NCBI RefSeq assembly: GCF_014250475.1
Contig: NZ_CP060204.1
Span: 1,439,001-1,503,000 of the forward strand
From: Selenomonas timonae
GTDB taxonomy: Bacteria; Bacillota; Negativicutes; Selenomonadales; Selenomonadaceae
DNA length: 64,000 nucleotides
Reading direction: 5' to 3'
Positions 42,544 to 64,000 of this stretch are shown one piece after another. The position numbers and the translations under genes are program-made. The notes under the pieces were generated by a model. It was not told the origin of the DNA, did not search any database, and was given only the letters and a program-made list of their open reading frames with translations. Position 1 is the first letter of the stretch. Each line of letters begins with the position of its first letter.

Positions 42544-42592
42544 TTGTGATAAATATCACTGTATAGTGATAAATTTTATATATACTGAAAAA
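42544..42592 (+). promoter_or_regulatory. Crp/HcpR-type operator and promoter for ccm-nrf operon
   Basis: TTGTGA-TAAATA-TCACTG (42544-42561) contains the inverted repeat GTGATA-AA-TATCAC (42546-42559). A -10 TATACT lies at 42581-42586, putting the operator centre about 41 bases upstream of the expected transcript start, the class II activator position. A second inverted repeat CACT-GTAT-AGTG (42557-42568) overlaps it. HcpR of the Crp/Fnr family is known to recognise TTGTGA-N6-TCACAA and to control nitrite/nitrosative genes. Confidence 0.6.
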
Positions 42593-42783: not shown

Positions 42784-43401
42784 ATGGTTGAAATTCGTAT
42801 GTGTGATATCTGTCAGTGCTTTGAGGGGCGTGATGTCCTGCATCATGTGACAGCTTCCTTTCATAGTGGTCGCGTGACAGCGATTGCCGGGGCAAACGGC
42901 AGTGGGAAATCGACGCTTCTGCGTCTGGCAGCACGTCTGCTCATCCCGACGTCCGGGAGCGTTGACACGTTTCGGGACGGTACACCCGTCAAGGGCGCAG
43001 CATACCGTTCGATGCTCGCGATGGCAACGCCGGAGATGGAGCTCTATGCGCGCCTTACCGTGCGTGAAAACCTCGCCTTTTTTCTCGGTGCGCGCGGCGT
43101 ACCATGCGGAGAGCCGCAGCTGCAGGAACTCCTCGTGCGCGTCGGGCTCCCGCCGGCGGTGCTACCGCGTATGGTGGGGCAGCTCTCGACGGGGATGCGT
43201 CAGCGCGTGCGGATAGCCGTGCTTCTCGGTGTCGATGCCGCAATTTGGCTGCTCGATGAGCCGGGGCTTGCGCTCGATGCGTGCGGTCAATCGCTTCTTC
43301 AACAGGAGGTGCGGTCAGCGGCGGAGCGCGGGCGGCTCATCCTGTGGGCGACGAACGATCGCGCGGAAAGGGAGGCGGCGGATGCGTGTGTCGAACTTTG
43401 A
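42784..43401 (+). CDS. ccmA: Heme exporter/CcmE-heme release ATPase CcmA
   Basis: 205 aa ABC ATPase. Walker A GANGSGKSTLLR, signature LSTGMRQRVRIA, Walker B IWLLDEPGLALD. Size and the following ccmB and ccmC identify it as CcmA, which with CcmB powers release of heme-loaded CcmE. GGAAGGA precedes the ATG. Overlaps ccmB by 20 bases. Confidence 0.92.
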   Translation: MVEIRMCDICQCFEGRDVLHHVTASFHSGRVTAIAGANGSGKSTLLRLAARLLIPTSGSVDTFRDGTPVKGAAYRSMLAMATPEMELYARLTVRENLAFFLGARGVPCGEPQLQELLVRVGLPPAVLPRMVGQLSTGMRQRVRIAVLLGVDAAIWLLDEPGLALDACGQSLLQQEVRSAAERGRLILWATNDRAEREAADACVEL

Positions 43402-44038
43402 GGCGGCGCGCAGAGTTGCCTATAAGGAACTCCTCGACGGCATTCGCCATCGCGCGGGCTATGTGACGATGGGGATGTTCGCGCTGACCGTGATTGCCTT
43501 CATGAGTATGTCGCTCGCGGGCGGTCTGACGGATGCGCGGCTGACGGCGGCACTCCTCTGGATTGTGATTTTCTTTGCGGCAACGCTGCAGGGAGAGCGT
43601 CTCTTTGCGGAGGAAGCAGCAGCGGGGACACTCCTGTTTCTTCGGATTTACGTTCCGGCACAGGCGGTGCTCTTCGGCAAGATGGCTGCGCACTTGATTA
43701 CGCTTGTGGTTCTCGCGGCGATTGTCGTTCCGCTCGCCCTCGTCCTGATGGATGCACCGTTTGTCCTCGATGCCGTGTTTGTTGGATCACTGTTTCTTGG
43801 GCTATGGGGCATGGCGGCTGCAGATACCCTGCTCGCGGCGGTGGCCGCCAATGCGAGTGTGCGGGGGGGGCTCGTTCCCATCCTGCTGCTTCCATCCATG
43901 TTGCCGATTCTCCTGCCTGCGATTGCGCTCACGGCGGGGGAGGGGGAGTCGATCCTGCTCGGCGGTATGATGATTTACGATATGGCGCTTACCGTAGGGG
44001 CGTCGATGCTTTTTGATTCTCTCTGGATTGAGAGTTAG
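43382..44038 (+). CDS. ccmB: Heme exporter protein CcmB
   Basis: 218 aa with about six membrane helices; the segments EEAAAGTLLFLRIYVPAQAVLFGKMAAH and VRGGLVPILLLPSMLPILLP resemble CcmB. ATG 43382 lies inside the end of ccmA and is preceded by GGGAGGCGG, so translation is probably coupled. The frame is open further upstream, but that part is antisense to nothing and unlike the family. Confidence 0.9.
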   Translation: MRVSNFEAARRVAYKELLDGIRHRAGYVTMGMFALTVIAFMSMSLAGGLTDARLTAALLWIVIFFAATLQGERLFAEEAAAGTLLFLRIYVPAQAVLFGKMAAHLITLVVLAAIVVPLALVLMDAPFVLDAVFVGSLFLGLWGMAAADTLLAAVAANASVRGGLVPILLLPSMLPILLPAIALTAGEGESILLGGMMIYDMALTVGASMLFDSLWIES

Positions 44039-44051
44039 ATTTGGAGGCGAA

Positions 44052-44669
44052 ATGCTTGCGGGAGTGATCGGTGTTTTGACACTGGCAGTTCTGTACGCTG
44101 TCTTTTTCTTGGTTCCGCCTGCCCAGGGGCTGGGCGACTATGTACGTATTGCATTCTTCCACATCCCCTGTGCGTGGGTTTCGGTCATTGCATTCTTCTG
44201 TGCCGCCTATTGGGGCGCACGCTATCTGAAAACACGCAATCTTCACTATGATACAAAAAGTGCACGATCCGCTTTTCTCGGACTCGTCTTTACACTCCTC
44301 GCCACAGGGAGCGGGGCAGTCTTCTCAAAGCTTACATGGGGGGCGTACTGGAACTGGGATCCGCGACAGACGACAATCTTCGTTCTGCTCCTCATCTATG
44401 GGGCCTATGTGACACTCCGTATGACGATGCGGGATGAGCGTGCACGCGCCTCCTCGTCGGCGGTCTACGCACTCTTCTCCTTTATCGCAGTGCCGTTTCT
44501 CGTCTTTATCCTGCCGCGGATGTTCTTCTCACTGCATCCGTCACCTGTCCTCAACGGTGCAGGGCGGCTCGATATGGATGCGGTGATGCTCGGAACGCTC
44601 ATATTAGCGCTTGTCGATGTGACACTTATGTATGTTTGGCTGATGAAACGGGGGGATCGTCATGCGTAA
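44052..44669 (+). CDS. ccmC: Heme exporter/handling protein CcmC
   Basis: 205 aa, six membrane helices. The heme-binding WWD domain reads LTWGAYWNWDPRQT, and conserved histidines sit in AFFHIPCAW and FFSLHPSP. CcmC loads heme onto CcmE. ATG 44052 follows GGAGG. No ccmD is found between it and ccmE; the two overlap by 8 bases. Confidence 0.95.
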   Translation: MLAGVIGVLTLAVLYAVFFLVPPAQGLGDYVRIAFFHIPCAWVSVIAFFCAAYWGARYLKTRNLHYDTKSARSAFLGLVFTLLATGSGAVFSKLTWGAYWNWDPRQTTIFVLLLIYGAYVTLRMTMRDERARASSSAVYALFSFIAVPFLVFILPRMFFSLHPSPVLNGAGRLDMDAVMLGTLILALVDVTLMYVWLMKRGDRHA

Positions 44670-45036
44670 ATACTTCTTCGTTGTACTGATTCTTGGATTT
44701 ATCGGATATGCGGGGTACTTCTTTGCGGACTCCGTGACCCCCTACGTCAGTGTTGCAGAGGCGCGTACCTCCGAACGGAATGTGCAGGTCAAGGGGCTGC
44801 CCGACGACACTGTCGAGCCGCACATGGAGAACAATATGTTCGTGTTCTCCATCTCCGATGAGGAGACGGGCGAGACGATGCTCGTCCGATACAAGGGTGT
44901 AAAGCCCGATAACTTTGATGAAGCGTACCACGTTGTCGCGATTGGGAAATATACGGGCGATGCGTTCGCAGCGGACAAGCTGCTCATCAAATGCCCGTCG
45001 AAATATGAGGCGGAAAAAGGAAAGGTTCAGGTATGA
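44662..45036 (+). CDS. ccmE: Heme chaperone CcmE, CxxxY variant
   Basis: 124 aa: N-terminal membrane anchor (residues 5-24) and an OB-fold periplasmic domain (VQVKGLPDDTV, MLVRYKGVKPDNF, VAIGKYTGDAFAADKLLIKC). The heme-attachment site is C111-P-S-K-Y115, so the usual histidine of HxxxY is replaced by cysteine. This variant is the hallmark of System I* in archaea and some sulfate reducers. ATGA overlap with ccmF. The tail after Tyr115 is short. Confidence 0.93.
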   Translation: MRKYFFVVLILGFIGYAGYFFADSVTPYVSVAEARTSERNVQVKGLPDDTVEPHMENNMFVFSISDEETGETMLVRYKGVKPDNFDEAYHVVAIGKYTGDAFAADKLLIKCPSKYEAEKGKVQV

Positions 45037-47165
45037 TCGGAACGTTATTCTTGGGTGCGGTTCTGTTCTTTGCCCTTGCTGCAGTGTTCTGTGAGACGCA
45101 GGGAAAAACAACCGAAGGACGGATCTGTGCGGCCCTAGCGGGGCTTGCATCGCTCGGTGCAGCGGCGTTCCTCTTCGTCATTATTCTGAACGATGATTTC
45201 AGCTACACCTACGTTATCAGTTACTCCTCCATCAGTCTGCCGCTGCTCTATAAGCTCTCCGCATTCTGGGCGGGGCAGCAGGGCTCATTTCTCCTCTGGC
45301 TCGTGATTCACGCCATTGTCGGTGTTCTGATTGCACGCGAGGGTCGGATGACAGCGACGGGGCGCACGATCTACCACGCACTCACCGCGATGCTCGTCCT
45401 CCTCGTCCTCTTTAAGAGCCCCTTTGCTCCCGCAGAGACTGTTGCCATGGACGGGCACGGGATGAATCCGCTGCTGCAGGATCCGTGGATGGCGGTGCAT
45501 CCGCCGATCATCTTTGTGGGCTATGCGCTGCTTGCAGTTCCGTTCGTCTACTCTCTTGAGAGCATGATAAAGGCACCGATGGACGGCAGTTTCCTCGCTC
45601 CGATGCGTCGCTGGACGCTCATCGCGTGGGCATTCCTCGGTGCAGGCATCTTCATCGGAGGTTACTGGGCGTACAAGGTGCTCGGGTGGGGCGGCTACTG
45701 GGGCTGGGATCCCGTGGAGAACTCCTCGCTTGTCCCGTGGCTGCTCGCCTGTGTTCTGCTTCATCTGATCTCTGTTGCGCGTGGGCGGCGCGGGGCGTTT
45801 TACCTCGTTCATCTTGCGGCAACCTTCTCCTACGCATTCGTCCTTTACGGGACATTCCTCACGCGCAGCGGTATTCTCGGTGATTTCTCCGTGCACTCCT
45901 TTGCGGGCTCGGACATCGGCCTCTACATCGCCCTTGCCAATGCGGCTGTCCTGCTCTTCGGGCTCGGCGTTCTGATCGTTCGGATTGAACGTCTGCCGAA
46001 GGGGGCGGTCTACGAGCAGCACCGCAGCCGAGACTTCCTCGTGCTGCTCGGGATGCTTCTCATCGTATTCATCGTCGCTATCGTATTCTTCGGAATGTCC
46101 ATGCCGCTCATCTCCGGGCTGCTCGGAGAGAGTGCGGCGGTCGATACGAGTTACTATGTGCGTACCTCGCTGCCGATTGCGGTGCCGCTGGCGCTTCTCA
46201 TGGCACTCGGCGTACTTCTGCCCTACGGCAGTGGACGCGTCGCACGGCCTGTGTGGATCTTCGTGATCTCCGTGGGCGGCGGCGTTCTCGCGGGGCTGGT
46301 CGGAGTCACGGATATTCCGTCGGTTCTGCTCTCCACCTTTGCCCTCCTTGCCGCACTTGCTGCCATTGAGGCATTTCGCCGTCAACGCATTGGTCTGGGC
46401 GGGATGGTTGCCCACGTTGGCACGGGACTTGCGCTGCTCGCCTTTATTCTCTCGGGGTCGGGCAGTCAGACAACGACGGTCACACTCATCCCTGACGAGC
46501 CGCAGGAGGTCTATGGACACACGATCATCTATCGTGGACAGTCCTTTGCCGAGAGTGGCAGTGAGAAGTCCTACCGCTATGAGGTGGACGGAAGTCTGTG
46601 CGAGGCAGTGACAAAGCTGCGTGCAAACGGTGAGGATGCGGCACGTGAGCCTGCAATTGCAAGAAGCCTTGCGGGCGATCTCTATATCGCACCGTCGCCG
46701 ACTTCGGCGGAGCGTGACGAGCTGATTCTTCATCGCGGCAAGACCGTTATGGGGATCAACGACTATGCTTACCGCTACGAATCCATCGCATTTGAGCCGC
46801 AGGGCGGCGGCAAGACCCTCGTCACGGCGCAGATTGCGCTGACGGACGGCGAGGAAGTCGATGATGCCGCACCCACGATCCTTGCGACGGAGACGGGGGG
46901 GACATCCCAGCCGATCGAAGTGATGAACGGCAAGTTCCGCATTCGTCTCACGGGTGTCTCGGCGGATGAACGCGACATACGGATCGAGATCCTGCCCTCT
47001 GTGGCAGAGGAGGCGGCACTTCCCGTTCCCGCCTCGGTCAGTACGAAGCCCGGCATCTCCATCCTTTGGCTCGCCTGTGTTCTTGTGACTGTCGGTGGTC
47101 TCCTGGCAGCCACGCAGGTGGTAAGTCCCGTCAAAGGAGGTGGATCGGAAAAGCGGTCTGAGTGA
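45033..47165 (+). CDS. ccmF: Cytochrome c heme lyase CcmF
   Basis: 710 aa, about 13-15 membrane helices in residues 1-480 and a periplasmic domain before the last helix (IDDAAPTIL region, ending with a helix SILWLACVLVTVGGLLAATQ). WWD motif VLGWGGYWGWDPVENSSLVPW is complete. CcmF transfers heme from CcmE to apocytochrome. In this operon no CcmH or CcmG is encoded, so CcmF may act alone. Confidence 0.95.
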   Translation: MIGTLFLGAVLFFALAAVFCETQGKTTEGRICAALAGLASLGAAAFLFVIILNDDFSYTYVISYSSISLPLLYKLSAFWAGQQGSFLLWLVIHAIVGVLIAREGRMTATGRTIYHALTAMLVLLVLFKSPFAPAETVAMDGHGMNPLLQDPWMAVHPPIIFVGYALLAVPFVYSLESMIKAPMDGSFLAPMRRWTLIAWAFLGAGIFIGGYWAYKVLGWGGYWGWDPVENSSLVPWLLACVLLHLISVARGRRGAFYLVHLAATFSYAFVLYGTFLTRSGILGDFSVHSFAGSDIGLYIALANAAVLLFGLGVLIVRIERLPKGAVYEQHRSRDFLVLLGMLLIVFIVAIVFFGMSMPLISGLLGESAAVDTSYYVRTSLPIAVPLALLMALGVLLPYGSGRVARPVWIFVISVGGGVLAGLVGVTDIPSVLLSTFALLAALAAIEAFRRQRIGLGGMVAHVGTGLALLAFILSGSGSQTTTVTLIPDEPQEVYGHTIIYRGQSFAESGSEKSYRYEVDGSLCEAVTKLRANGEDAAREPAIARSLAGDLYIAPSPTSAERDELILHRGKTVMGINDYAYRYESIAFEPQGGGKTLVTAQIALTDGEEVDDAAPTILATETGGTSQPIEVMNGKFRIRLTGVSADERDIRIEILPSVAEEAALPVPASVSTKPGISILWLACVLVTVGGLLAATQVVSPVKGGGSEKRSE

Positions 47166-47191
47166 GAAATCATAGAAGGGAGGAAGGACAC

Positions 47192-47674
47192 ATGAATTTG
47201 AAGCAGTATGCAAAGGAGCATACGCTGCGCTGTATCATCGGTGCGTTTCTCGTGGGACTGTTCGCCGTCGGCGGCGGCATGCTCATGGACAAGGCCTCGG
47301 CATCGCCGAAGTTCTGCGGTATGTGCCATGCCATGCAGCACGAGGCAAAGACACATGCCATGTCCACACATGCGGACATCGCCTGTGTGGAGTGCCATCT
47401 GCCGCACGACAATATTGCCGTTTACTATTTTGAAAAGGGCAAGACAGGCATGCATGACACGCTCCATCAGGTACTGAACGACTATCCCGTACACATCAAG
47501 ATCTCCGATCACGGACGGGATATCGTGAATGCCAACTGTCTGCGCTGCCATACATCGACCATGGGATCGGTATGTCTGGACAGGGGCAAGGACGGAAATG
47601 CAAACTGTACGAAGTGTCACAGTGGTATGCCGCATGGTTCCAATCCTTTAGAAGGGGGGATAAGAGTTGAGTAA
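47192..47674 (+). CDS. nrfH: Cytochrome c nitrite reductase small subunit NrfH
   Basis: 160 aa NapC/NirT-type quinol dehydrogenase. One N-terminal membrane helix (about residues 13-32) and four CxxCH sites: CGMCHAM (with the CHxM arrangement typical of NrfH heme 1), CVECH, CLRCH and CTKCH. It passes electrons from menaquinol to NrfA. ATG 47192 follows GGGAGGA. Ends 8 bases inside the nrfA start. Confidence 0.95.
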   Translation: MNLKQYAKEHTLRCIIGAFLVGLFAVGGGMLMDKASASPKFCGMCHAMQHEAKTHAMSTHADIACVECHLPHDNIAVYYFEKGKTGMHDTLHQVLNDYPVHIKISDHGRDIVNANCLRCHTSTMGSVCLDRGKDGNANCTKCHSGMPHGSNPLEGGIRVE

Positions 47675-48971
47675 CAGAAAGAAAATCATCGCGGGTGTTG
47701 CCGGCGTCTGTGCCCTGTTCTTTGGATTCGTCGCCGTTCGCATCGGCGCACACCCGAACGATGACAGCATCAAACGCGTGCAGATCCAGGGCGACACCGC
47801 TGCCAAGATCGGCAAAGAGGCGTACAAGGACGCCTATCCGCTCCAGTACAACTCGTTCATGAAAAACAATGAGGAATCTCCGTCGCCCACAGGCTACGGC
47901 GGCAGCATGGAGGGCAACAGTCATCTGGAGCACCAGCCCGAGATGCTTGAGAACTTTAAGGGCTATAAGTTTGCCATCCAGTATGACGACGACCGAGGGC
48001 ATACGTATGCGGGCTACGATCTCCTGCATACGAAGAGGCTTCCGGGACAGAAGGGGAGTTGTCTACAGTGCAAGGGTTCGTATGTTTATGATGTGTACTT
48101 CAAAGAAGGTGGATGGGCGTATGCATCGAAGCCGTTTGATGAAGTTGCGGCTCCCATCACGATGGATGAGTGGTTCGGCTGCTCGACCTGCCACGATCCC
48201 GAGACGATGGAGCTGCGCGTCTATCAGCAGGGCTTTATCGAGTCGATGGCAAGACGTGGTGTTGATGTCAACGCTGCCACGCACAATGATATGCGTGCCT
48301 ATGTGTGCTCGCAGTGCCATACGGAGTACTACTTCACCGCCGAGGATGGTCGTGTCGCACATCCATACGAGAACGGTCTGGATGCCGAGTCCGAGTATCA
48401 GTACTACCAGTCCGGTCAGGCAGGCGGATTCAAGGGCGACTGGATGCACCCCGACTCCAAGACGATGATGCTCAAGGCGCAGCATCCGGAGTTCGAGACG
48501 TGGGCGACGAGTGTCCATGCCGATGCCGGTGTTACCTGCGTGGACTGCCACATGCCCTATATGCGTGACGGCGGCAAGAAGTACACCTCGCACTGGATGA
48601 CGAGTCCCTTGAAGACGACGAAGGAATCCTGTCTGAAGTGTCATGACGAGAGCGAGGAGACCCTCGTGGCACGCGTCAAGACCATTCATGACAATACGTT
48701 CAAGATCCAGCGCATCGCAGGCCAGACGGTCGCACGCGCACATCGCACGGTCAAGGCTGCGATGGATGCAGGTGTACCCGATGCAGCACTCGAGGATGCA
48801 CGCGCGAAGATTCGCGAAGCACAGTGGTACTGGGATTGGGTTGCCGCCGAGAACGGCATGGGCTTCCATAACCCCGACAAGATCATGCGTACCCTTGGGC
48901 TTTCGATTGATCTCGCACATCAGGCAATCGAGTCCGCCGAGGGAGCACGCCACGGCTTCCAGCCGCTCTGA
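47667..48971 (+). CDS. nrfA: Ammonia-forming cytochrome c nitrite reductase NrfA
   Basis: 434 aa pentaheme periplasmic enzyme reducing nitrite to ammonium with six electrons. The catalytic heme site is CLQCK (lysine ligand); four ordinary sites are CSTCH, CSQCH, CVDCH and CLKCH. The active-site tyrosine lies in CHTEYYF and the catalytic histidine in KAQHPEFE. N-terminal signal/anchor at residues 5-24. TTG start preceded by GAAGGGGGG. Followed by a terminator; nrfHA is the downstream end of the ccm operon. Confidence 0.96.
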   Translation: MSNRKKIIAGVAGVCALFFGFVAVRIGAHPNDDSIKRVQIQGDTAAKIGKEAYKDAYPLQYNSFMKNNEESPSPTGYGGSMEGNSHLEHQPEMLENFKGYKFAIQYDDDRGHTYAGYDLLHTKRLPGQKGSCLQCKGSYVYDVYFKEGGWAYASKPFDEVAAPITMDEWFGCSTCHDPETMELRVYQQGFIESMARRGVDVNAATHNDMRAYVCSQCHTEYYFTAEDGRVAHPYENGLDAESEYQYYQSGQAGGFKGDWMHPDSKTMMLKAQHPEFETWATSVHADAGVTCVDCHMPYMRDGGKKYTSHWMTSPLKTTKESCLKCHDESEETLVARVKTIHDNTFKIQRIAGQTVARAHRTVKAAMDAGVPDAALEDARAKIREAQWYWDWVAAENGMGFHNPDKIMRTLGLSIDLAHQAIESAEGARHGFQPL

Positions 48972-48995
48972 TCGGAGCACGACGAGACCAAAAAA

Positions 48996-49026
48996 GAATC
49001 GCCTCATGTTGGGGCGATTCTTTTTT
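48996..49026. terminator. Bidirectional terminator between nrfA and the TauE gene
   Basis: 8-bp stem GAATCGCC (48996-49003) / GGCGATTC (49013-49020), A-run before and T-run after. Confidence 0.88.
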
Positions 49027-63955: not shown

Positions 63956-64000
63956 ATGATGAATGGGGAAGAGAAAGCGGCTGTAAGCCGCAGAAATTTT
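63956..64000 (+). CDS. Start of a gene with a probable Tat signal peptide (truncated by window)
   Basis: Only 15 codons are visible, reading MMNGEEKAAVSRRNF. S-R-R-N-F at the end matches the start of the twin-arginine motif SRRxFLK, so the product may be a folded, cofactor-containing protein exported by Tat. AAAGGAG lies just upstream and a good promoter sits at 63908-63936. Identity cannot be told from the visible part. Confidence 0.6.
   Translation, partial: MMNGEEKAAVSRRNF

Follow-up and report, generated by a model that had tools for sequence, protein, structure and literature searches.

The window analysed here is a stretch of 64,000 nucleotides (nt) of Selenomonas timonae, a member of the Selenomonadaceae (NZ_CP060204.1, positions 1,439,001-1,503,000 of the forward strand), and the system under study lies at 42784-48971 on its plus strand, where seven open frames follow one another in the order ccmA, ccmB, ccmC, ccmE, ccmF, nrfH and nrfA (Table 1). 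Four of the six junctions are overlaps (20, 8, 4 and 8 nt) and the remaining two are gaps of 13 and 26 nt, in agreement with a sequence-only reading of this DNA that had described seven co-directional cytochrome c maturation (ccm) and nitrite reductase (nrf) genes with mostly overlapping junctions. No ccmD, ccmG or ccmH was found within the cluster; the control locus of E. coli holds all three, together with a CcmE bearing HDENY. We consider it likely that these genes constitute a five-protein System I* operon arranged with nrfHA in a single unit, presumably co-transcribed, in which a single CcmF would serve all haem attachment sites.

Table 1. Coordinates of the ccm-nrf genes and of associated features in the window (aa, amino acids; ABC, ATP-binding cassette).
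Feature	Position	Strand	Description	Supporting match
ccmA	42784-43401	+	205 aa; ATPase of haem-exporting ABC transporter	Pfam ABC_tran 1.6e-23
ccmB	43382-44038	+	218 aa; ABC transporter membrane subunit	Pfam CcmB PF03379 6.9e-16
ccmC	44052-44669	+	205 aa; haem-handling protein, motif WGAYWNWDPRQT	Cytochrom_C_asm PF01578 5.9e-21
ccmE	44662-45036	+	124 aa; haem chaperone, C111PSKY115 replacing HxxxY	Pfam PF03100 7.9e-17
ccmF	45033-47165	+	710 aa; cytochrome c synthase	PF01578 1.4e-30 and CcmF_C PF16327 2.2e-12
nrfH	47192-47674	+	160 aa counted from ATG; tetrahaem quinol dehydrogenase subunit	Cytochrom_NNT PF03264 2.3e-9
nrfA	47667-48971	+	434 aa, TTG start; pentahaem nitrite reductase	Cytochrom_C552 PF02335 6.9e-112
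Terminator-like hairpin 3' of nrfA	48990-49026	+	17-pair stem and T tract	consensus match
Start of FAD_binding_2 flavoprotein	63956-64000	+	first 15 codons, MMNGEEKAAVSRRNF; runs off the window	

The assignment to System I* starts from CcmE, whose C-terminus, LLIKCPSKYEAEKGKVQV, places a cysteine at residue 111 and a tyrosine at 115 in alignment with E. coli CcmE, as the sequence-only reading had it (nearest solved chain 2kct, E 0.0014). Among 153 distinct CcmE frames, collected from loci of the order, part of a phylum draw and named genomes with E. coli left out, 152 carry a cysteine followed by proline, with tyrosine or phenylalanine four residues after the cysteine, and none a histidine; the sole exception is one part of a frame that is split. 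A lone His-to-Cys point change among HxxxY proteins, which would have undone the assignment, was thus rejected, every complete CcmE C-terminus outside E. coli being of the cysteine type. CcmA, CcmB, CcmC and CcmF are all present, with the tryptophan-rich motif (WGGYWGWDP at 219 of CcmF) and, by alignment, the haem-ligand histidines of CcmF equivalent to E. coli H173, H261, H303 and H491. With a CXXXY CcmE, the CcmABCEF set and no CcmH match, the cluster is, judged by gene content and motifs, a System I* cytochrome c maturation system, which is a known kind. The earlier assignment therefore holds, although the variant had been ascribed to archaea and some deltaproteobacteria, whereas a 2011 review (PMC3601427) already lists Firmicutes among its carriers, mostly with CPSKY, and reports that about a third of bacteria with a cysteine-type CcmE retain CcmH.

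The two downstream proteins were recognised by motif reading as NrfHA, NrfA having CLQCK and four CXXCH and NrfH four CXXCH, and the best solved-structure match of NrfA is itself an NrfA (2vr0, E 2.2e-79). The nearest NCBIfam models are those expected for all seven proteins, every score lying under its curated cut-off (for instance ccmA TIGR01189 at 6.9e-31 and 107.5 bits against 131.6, and TIGR03153 for NrfH at 1.7e-30 and 105.9 bits against 134.2). Such shortfalls might be expected of a decaying or inactive operon, a reading that we find scarcely credible given seven open frames, intact haem motifs and the four CcmF histidines. Moreover, CcmE, CcmF, NrfH and NrfA are 97-100% identical to those of the window in G025 and 85-99% in G031 and G035, three members of the genus, and S. 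ruminantium-like nrfA is present in rumen metatranscriptomes (PMC6776011). Elsewhere in the dataset, one ccmE is split across two frames (L050:6027-6340, in G119), in a genome for which only an NrfA fragment was matched; this is perhaps a decayed copy.

The genome around the window consists of one contig of 2.35 Mb (99.94% complete), and all order-wide counts given here come from family-profile searches of 189 genomes, this one included. CcmH (PF03918) was detected in 0/189 genomes, own genome included (control 4/14), so the check for a ccmH elsewhere in the genome came out clean with this family. ResB (PF05140), the marker of System II, had no match in the own genome and none over cut-off in the 189 (control 5/14); three sub-threshold ResB matches in the order were dismissed, as they lie inside CcmF frames of 705-719 aa. 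Cytochrom_C_asm (PF01578) gave two matches in the complete one-contig genome, one of them listed as CcmF; the second must then be CcmC, with CcmF the only CcmF/NrfE-type protein found. With just these two matches, CcmF would be the sole synthase and both NrfE and CcsA would be missing, and the search for ccsA or ccsB elsewhere that the sequence-only reading had called for turned up neither. Its claim that ccmG is absent stands for the cluster only, for a ResA/TlpA-like lipoprotein with WCPPC is encoded, with CcdA behind it, ~250 kb from the ccm genes (L110:1357-2610, genome ~1,230.6-1,231.9 kb). The ResA-like protein reaches 75.1 bits against the dsbE model (cut-off 123.15) and so does not qualify as a CcmG by the curated model, but with CcdA it forms a plausible thiol-reducing pair for cytochrome maturation.

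CcmF is a single protein of 710 aa, with no split into CcmF1 and CcmF2 of the Methanosarcina type. Its AlphaFold2 model (mean predicted local distance difference test score, pLDDT, 88.5) is closest to 6zmq (Z 36.3, root-mean-square deviation 2.8, 542 residues aligned). Residues ~479-673 (window 46467-47051) form a beta-rich region larger than that of E. coli CcmF, the part at ~560-655 being unaligned to the E. coli protein. The idea that this extra periplasmic part replaces CcmH is weakened by the CcmF of G042, which has only 599 aa, and by the lack of any CcmH match in the order; the structural matches of the extra part are unrelated proteins at Z 8.3 and below, nothing firm. A profile comparison detected no kinship between the C-terminal part of CcmF and ResB (probability 1.6%).

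A distinctive trait of the operon is the junction of ccmC and ccmE, where the 8-nt overlap leaves no room for a usual ccmD. The spacing between these genes ranges from -65 to +6 nt in 41 Selenomonadaceae loci and from -4 to +34 nt in six loci of Sporomusaceae or uncultured Selenomonadales, against 54-441 nt in 65 other loci. Of the 64 other loci whose spacing is at least 70 nt, 63 hold a small hydrophobic open reading frame (ORF) in the spacer, and the ten such ORFs compared with Pfam all match CcmD_alt (PF20077), with E values of 0.093 at worst and seven scores above the cut-off. Counting frames on the same strand and at most 700 nt from an adjacent ccmC-ccmE pair (loci without such a pair, namely L096, L101, L102, L103 and short loci lacking ccmC, many of L054-L083 among them, being left out), we found a CcmD_alt-like frame in 74/74 distinct loci from outside the Negativicutes (60/60 with other layouts and 14/14 labelled hybrid) and in 0/45 distinct Negativicutes loci (39 Selenomonadaceae and six Sporomusaceae or uncultured Selenomonadales); as the profile was built from 30 sequences of the counted loci, the positive counts arise partly by construction, which does not apply to the Negativicutes zero. 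Before removal of duplicates the counts were 80/80 and 0/51. At E <6, the same 30-sequence profile had no match in the window or among the Selenomonadaceae loci, and it reported nothing in the six Sporomusaceae or uncultured Selenomonadales loci. The absence of ccmD had been presented as a defining trait of System I*; the frame found in 74/74 loci outside the class contradicts this and makes the lack of a ccmD slot peculiar to the Negativicutes. The slot is empty in all Negativicutes loci that were read, leaving a CcmABCEF operon, which goes beyond the published accounts that we found: no report of a CcmD-less CcmABCEF set in Negativicutes came up in a literature search that left most subscription papers out of reach.

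It is nevertheless possible, if in our view rather unlikely, that this is an ordinary System I* of which nothing is really missing, with CcmD_alt, and possibly helpers akin to CcmG or CcmH, encoded elsewhere. A CcmD_alt of just ~35-55 aa is easily missed, the ResA-like/CcdA pair does lie far from the operon, and relocation of ccm genes occurs, ccmF standing apart from ccmABCE in some relatives such as G164. Against this stand the empty slot in all 45 distinct loci and the silence of the CcmD_alt profile described above, as well as the CcmD model PF04995, over cut-off in 0/189 genomes, though this model describes the wrong subfamily and reported none of the ten CcmD_alt-like ORFs either. A PF04995 match in the own genome at 1,162,089 was rejected, as it falls inside a 707-aa frame and scores 17.7 bits for a cut-off of 25.6.

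We next consider the clients of this machinery. The sequence-only reading had taken the cluster as dedicated to NrfHA, its only obvious clients, and as a minimal, possibly mobile module for nitrite ammonification. A search of the whole genome for CXXCH returned 136 forward and 128 reverse places (68 and 72 in the control), among which a pentahaem NapC/NrfH-like cytochrome of 176 aa was identified at 1,504,718-1,505,248, ~17 kb downstream of nrfA and past the end of the window. It directly follows an FAD_binding_2 flavoprotein, both within L031:1-2248 (genome 1,502,956-1,505,248), and the flavoprotein start at the end of the window is in frame with L031:199-1707, the two starts being separated by 243 nt without a stop. 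We take this start, MMNGEEKAAVSRRNF, to be Tat-like. The nearest NCBIfam models of the flavoprotein are vinyl phenol reductase and flavocytochrome c, both far under their cut-offs, and with the cytochrome it is probably a periplasmic reductase of the fumarate or enoate type. Two other CXXCH or multihaem candidates were discarded, namely a cluster at 1,325.5 kb, which is DnaJ-like, and a PF14537 match at 1,745.9 kb (168-aa frame, E 0.0086), where no cytochrome frame was seen.

Homologues of this second cytochrome join the ccm genes in two genomes of the order. In G042 (L041:3499-9868), the flavoprotein, the pentahaem cytochrome (60% identical to that of the window's genome), ccmA, ccmB, ccmC, ccmE and ccmF form one run, and in G048 the pentahaem cytochrome (55% identical) abuts ccmA; neither genome has an NrfA over cut-off. 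Set against the nrfHA layout, these two arrangements place the same maturation genes beside two different clients, and the window's genome has both clients with one maturation machine. The notion of a dedicated NrfHA system must thus be abandoned.

CcmE and NrfA tend to occur together. CcmE was detected in 117/189 genomes of the order, 14/14 of the genus among them, and NrfA in 119/189; over cut-off, both were found in 109 genomes, neither in 65, CcmE only in 7 and NrfA only in 8 (Fisher p 3e-33, uncorrected for kinship). In all 14 genomes of the genus, this one included, nrfA follows ccmE by 3-4 kb on the same strand, which, with the full seven-gene order read in G025, G031 and G035, argues that the cluster is not a chance assembly. 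Across the order, 75 of the 109 genomes with both have nrfA on the strand of ccmE and 2-6.5 kb downstream of it, the others having it at most 6.5 kb upstream (12), farther along the contig (3), on the opposite strand (1) or on another contig (18). In the named genomes, ccmABCEF stands ahead of nrfHA in five of the six loci of Sporomusaceae or uncultured Selenomonadales, namely those of Pelosinus propionicus, a second Pelosinus, Sporomusa malonica, S. acidovorans and an uncultured Selenomonadales.

A minimal mobile module with maturation genes for NrfHA alone could account for the proximity of nrfA to ccmE in the genus and in much of the order, and for a layout common to Pelosinus and some Sporomusa. 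We judge it very unlikely, since the second client, the varied positions of nrfA and the inheritance of CcmF all speak against it. In a tree of 43 chosen rows that included E. coli and metagenome-assembled genomes (MAGs) of Desulfobacterota and Myxococcota, with neither archaea nor Desulfovibrio, the CcmF of the 18 Negativicutes rows form one clade (support 100/99, 100% of bootstrap trees), with Selenomonas sp. ND2010 and S. ruminantium Z108 as the named rows nearest to the window; identity to the Pelosinus and Sporomusa counterparts is 36-37%. No match of CcmF covering more than 80% was found among plasmid records, a set that may omit records close to the window's genome, and all matches were under 60% identity. 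The immediate neighbours, to which the screen for mobile genes was confined, are an aldo-keto reductase gene upstream and a convergent TauE-type gene downstream. The suggested mobility is therefore not retained, and the distribution indicates that the ccm cluster is an old trait of the class with local rearrangement rather than a recently mobile module.

In S. ovata (L190), ccmABCE occurs without ccmF or nrfHA in the 16.5 kb stretch that was read, unlike in S. malonica and S. acidovorans. In genus g22 (L047 and L048 of G164; L008, L011, L016), ccmABCE is separate from ccmF; a loss of ccmF in this genus was rejected, as a CcmF-sized match lies elsewhere, for example in G164 at C8:786654 with ccmE on C2. 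Upstream of the window's own cluster, an imperfect palindrome, TGTGATAAATATCAC, at 42545-42559, lies ~225 nt 5' of ccmA and right after the aldo-keto reductase gene. We take it to be of the CRP/FNR type.

A different arrangement was encountered in other Bacillota. A phylum draw made without System I* bias yielded CcmE in 84/398 genomes, of which the positives behind L054-L103 and the Selenomonadaceae were read, and a scan of named genomes used a System I* CcmC alignment, its best 80 of 555 matches being hence biased to System I*. No CcmF-sized Cytochrom_C_asm frame was present in the 10 genomes examined from two other families of the phylum, f68 and f20 (largest 482 aa). Seven of their ten loci were read; the four tested with Pfam (L089, L091, L094, L099) carry ResB and CcsA behind ccmABC and ccmE. 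Eleven loci of this kind came from the scan of named genomes, all with ResB and, except for L143, also with CcsA; some coincide with the f68/f20 places. In the profile-matched hybrid loci (L134, L138, L140, L142, L144, L146, L148, L177, L185, L196) the order is ccmA-ccmB-ccmC-ccmD_alt-ccmE, with CcmE of the cysteine type, then ResB and CcsA, as in Dethiobacter sp. and a Peptococcaceae MAG. A CXXCK NrfA lies near hybrid loci L093-L095, L099, L185 and L196, some of which are the same places. These loci look like a System I* haem export and chaperone branch feeding a System II synthase, a combination for which we saw no report among the papers that our literature searches returned.

The gene set of the window raises the question of how the CXXCK haem of NrfA, a motif found in all 26 NrfA frames listed, is attached. 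Special proteins are used for it in E. coli (NrfEFG) and Wolinella (NrfI) (PMC3601427, PMC12285233), and by analogy CcmF might here serve CXXCH only, the CXXCK haem being added by an unknown lyase. We doubt this, as no second CcmF or NrfE, CcmH-family member or ResB was found in the genome and nrfHA stays near ccmE throughout the genus; besides, NrfF, a CcmH paralogue, is reported to be non-essential (PMC3601427). In a genome with one CcmF and no NrfE-, NrfF- or ResB-type protein, that CcmF probably serves both CXXCH and the CXXCK of NrfA, and with no extra lyase visible and the sole ccmF gene beside nrfHA, such a bifunctional CcmF is the most likely arrangement.

We therefore propose that CcmAB and CcmC would bring haem to the periplasmic side, that CcmC would load it onto C111 of CcmE without CcmD, and that CcmE would release it to the single CcmF for attachment to the apo-cytochromes without CcmH. 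Its targets would be five sites in NrfA (four CXXCH and the CXXCK), four CXXCH in NrfH and another five CXXCH in the flavoprotein-linked cytochrome. The ResA-like/CcdA pair may act as reductant for apo-cytochrome thiols, if one is needed. CcmG and CcmH may simply be superfluous where anaerobic life leaves exported thiols largely unoxidised. The chemistry has precedents: the Desulfovibrio ccm set without CcmG and CcmH yields holocytochrome in E. coli, with haem bound covalently by the cysteine CcmE (PMC3601427), and the CcmABCEF of M. acetivorans with its CXXXY CcmE is functional and needs C120, a set called Archaea-specific in 2022 (PMC9084895).

In its strict form, the proposal is that Negativicutes have a true five-protein CcmABCEF system without CcmD, CcmG, CcmH and CcmI, with one CcmF handling CXXCH and the NrfA CXXCK without NrfE, NrfF, NrfG or NrfI, and we incline towards it with only a little more belief than doubt. 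Several points limit this proposal and the mechanism as a whole. PF04995 was the only CcmD family searched genome-wide, PF20077 was not, so a displaced ccmD_alt remains conceivable, and the absence of CcmH depends on a single family model (PF03918). Within NrfEFG, NrfE (two PF01578 matches) and NrfF (no PF03918 match) are lacking from the genome, NrfG/CcmI-like tetratricopeptide helpers not having been searched. The ResA-like protein lies under every curated cut-off and is unlinked to ccm. Eight genomes have NrfA but no CcmE over cut-off; G064, G066 and G120 among them are >90% complete, although these three and G104 do show a Cytochrom_C_asm match. Finally, the cytochrome inventory is partial: of the 264 CXXCH places, the forward ones up to 1,505,056 were listed, in addition to the PF14537 search.

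Compared with known systems, the operon resembles the Desulfovibrio System I* (Stevens 2011, PMC3601427) in its CxxxY CcmE, CcmABC, CcmF and lack of CcmH and of CcmG in the cluster. However, D. desulfuricans has and needs CcmD (PMC9084895), whereas here there is no ccmD slot and the genes continue into nrfHA. M. acetivorans likewise has a CXXXY CcmE and this protein set, lacking CcmD, CcmH and CcmI, but its genes are not in one operon and it has two CcmF (F1, F2) (PMC9084895), as opposed to one operon and one CcmF in this bacterium. If the genome-wide absence of CcmD holds, the Negativicutes would have a set of the M. acetivorans type. The E. coli NrfEFG system is comparable in that NrfE is a CcmF paralogue and NrfA carries CXXCK, but no second CcmF or CcmH-family NrfF was found in the window's genome; Wolinella, with NrfI/CcsBA of System II, likewise has NrfHA with CXXCK as client, while ResB is over cut-off in none of the 189 genomes of the window's order. 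A close likeness is with Pelosinus propionicus, Pelosinus sp., S. malonica and S. acidovorans (L161, L167, L178, L195), which have the same genes in the same order, CPSKY and no CcmD slot. A 2025 review of NrfA maturation places NrfHA organisms, Desulfovibrio included, in System II (PMC12285233), which conflicts with the System I* of Desulfovibrio (PMC3601427) and with that read here in Negativicutes; the words Negativicutes, Selenomonas and Veillonella do not occur in this review.

The loss of CcmD from the operon, specific to this class, and the probable single-CcmF route to NrfA are the two points that go beyond what we found in print. An operon without a CcmD slot, beside relatives that keep CcmD_alt, offers a simple test case for the roles of CcmD and CcmH, and it bears on the proposal that archaeal membranes make CcmD dispensable (PMC9084895): if the five-protein reading is true, the set called Archaea-specific in 2022 would be independent of archaeal membranes. 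Likewise, the single-CcmF genome suggests that no special lyase is needed for the CXXCK haem of NrfA, in which case the rule that CXXCK requires a lyase of its own would have exceptions. These implications concern organisms of ecological relevance, as S. ruminantium-like nrfA is expressed in the sheep rumen, where selenomonads have been proposed as hydrogen users beside methanogens (PMC6776011).

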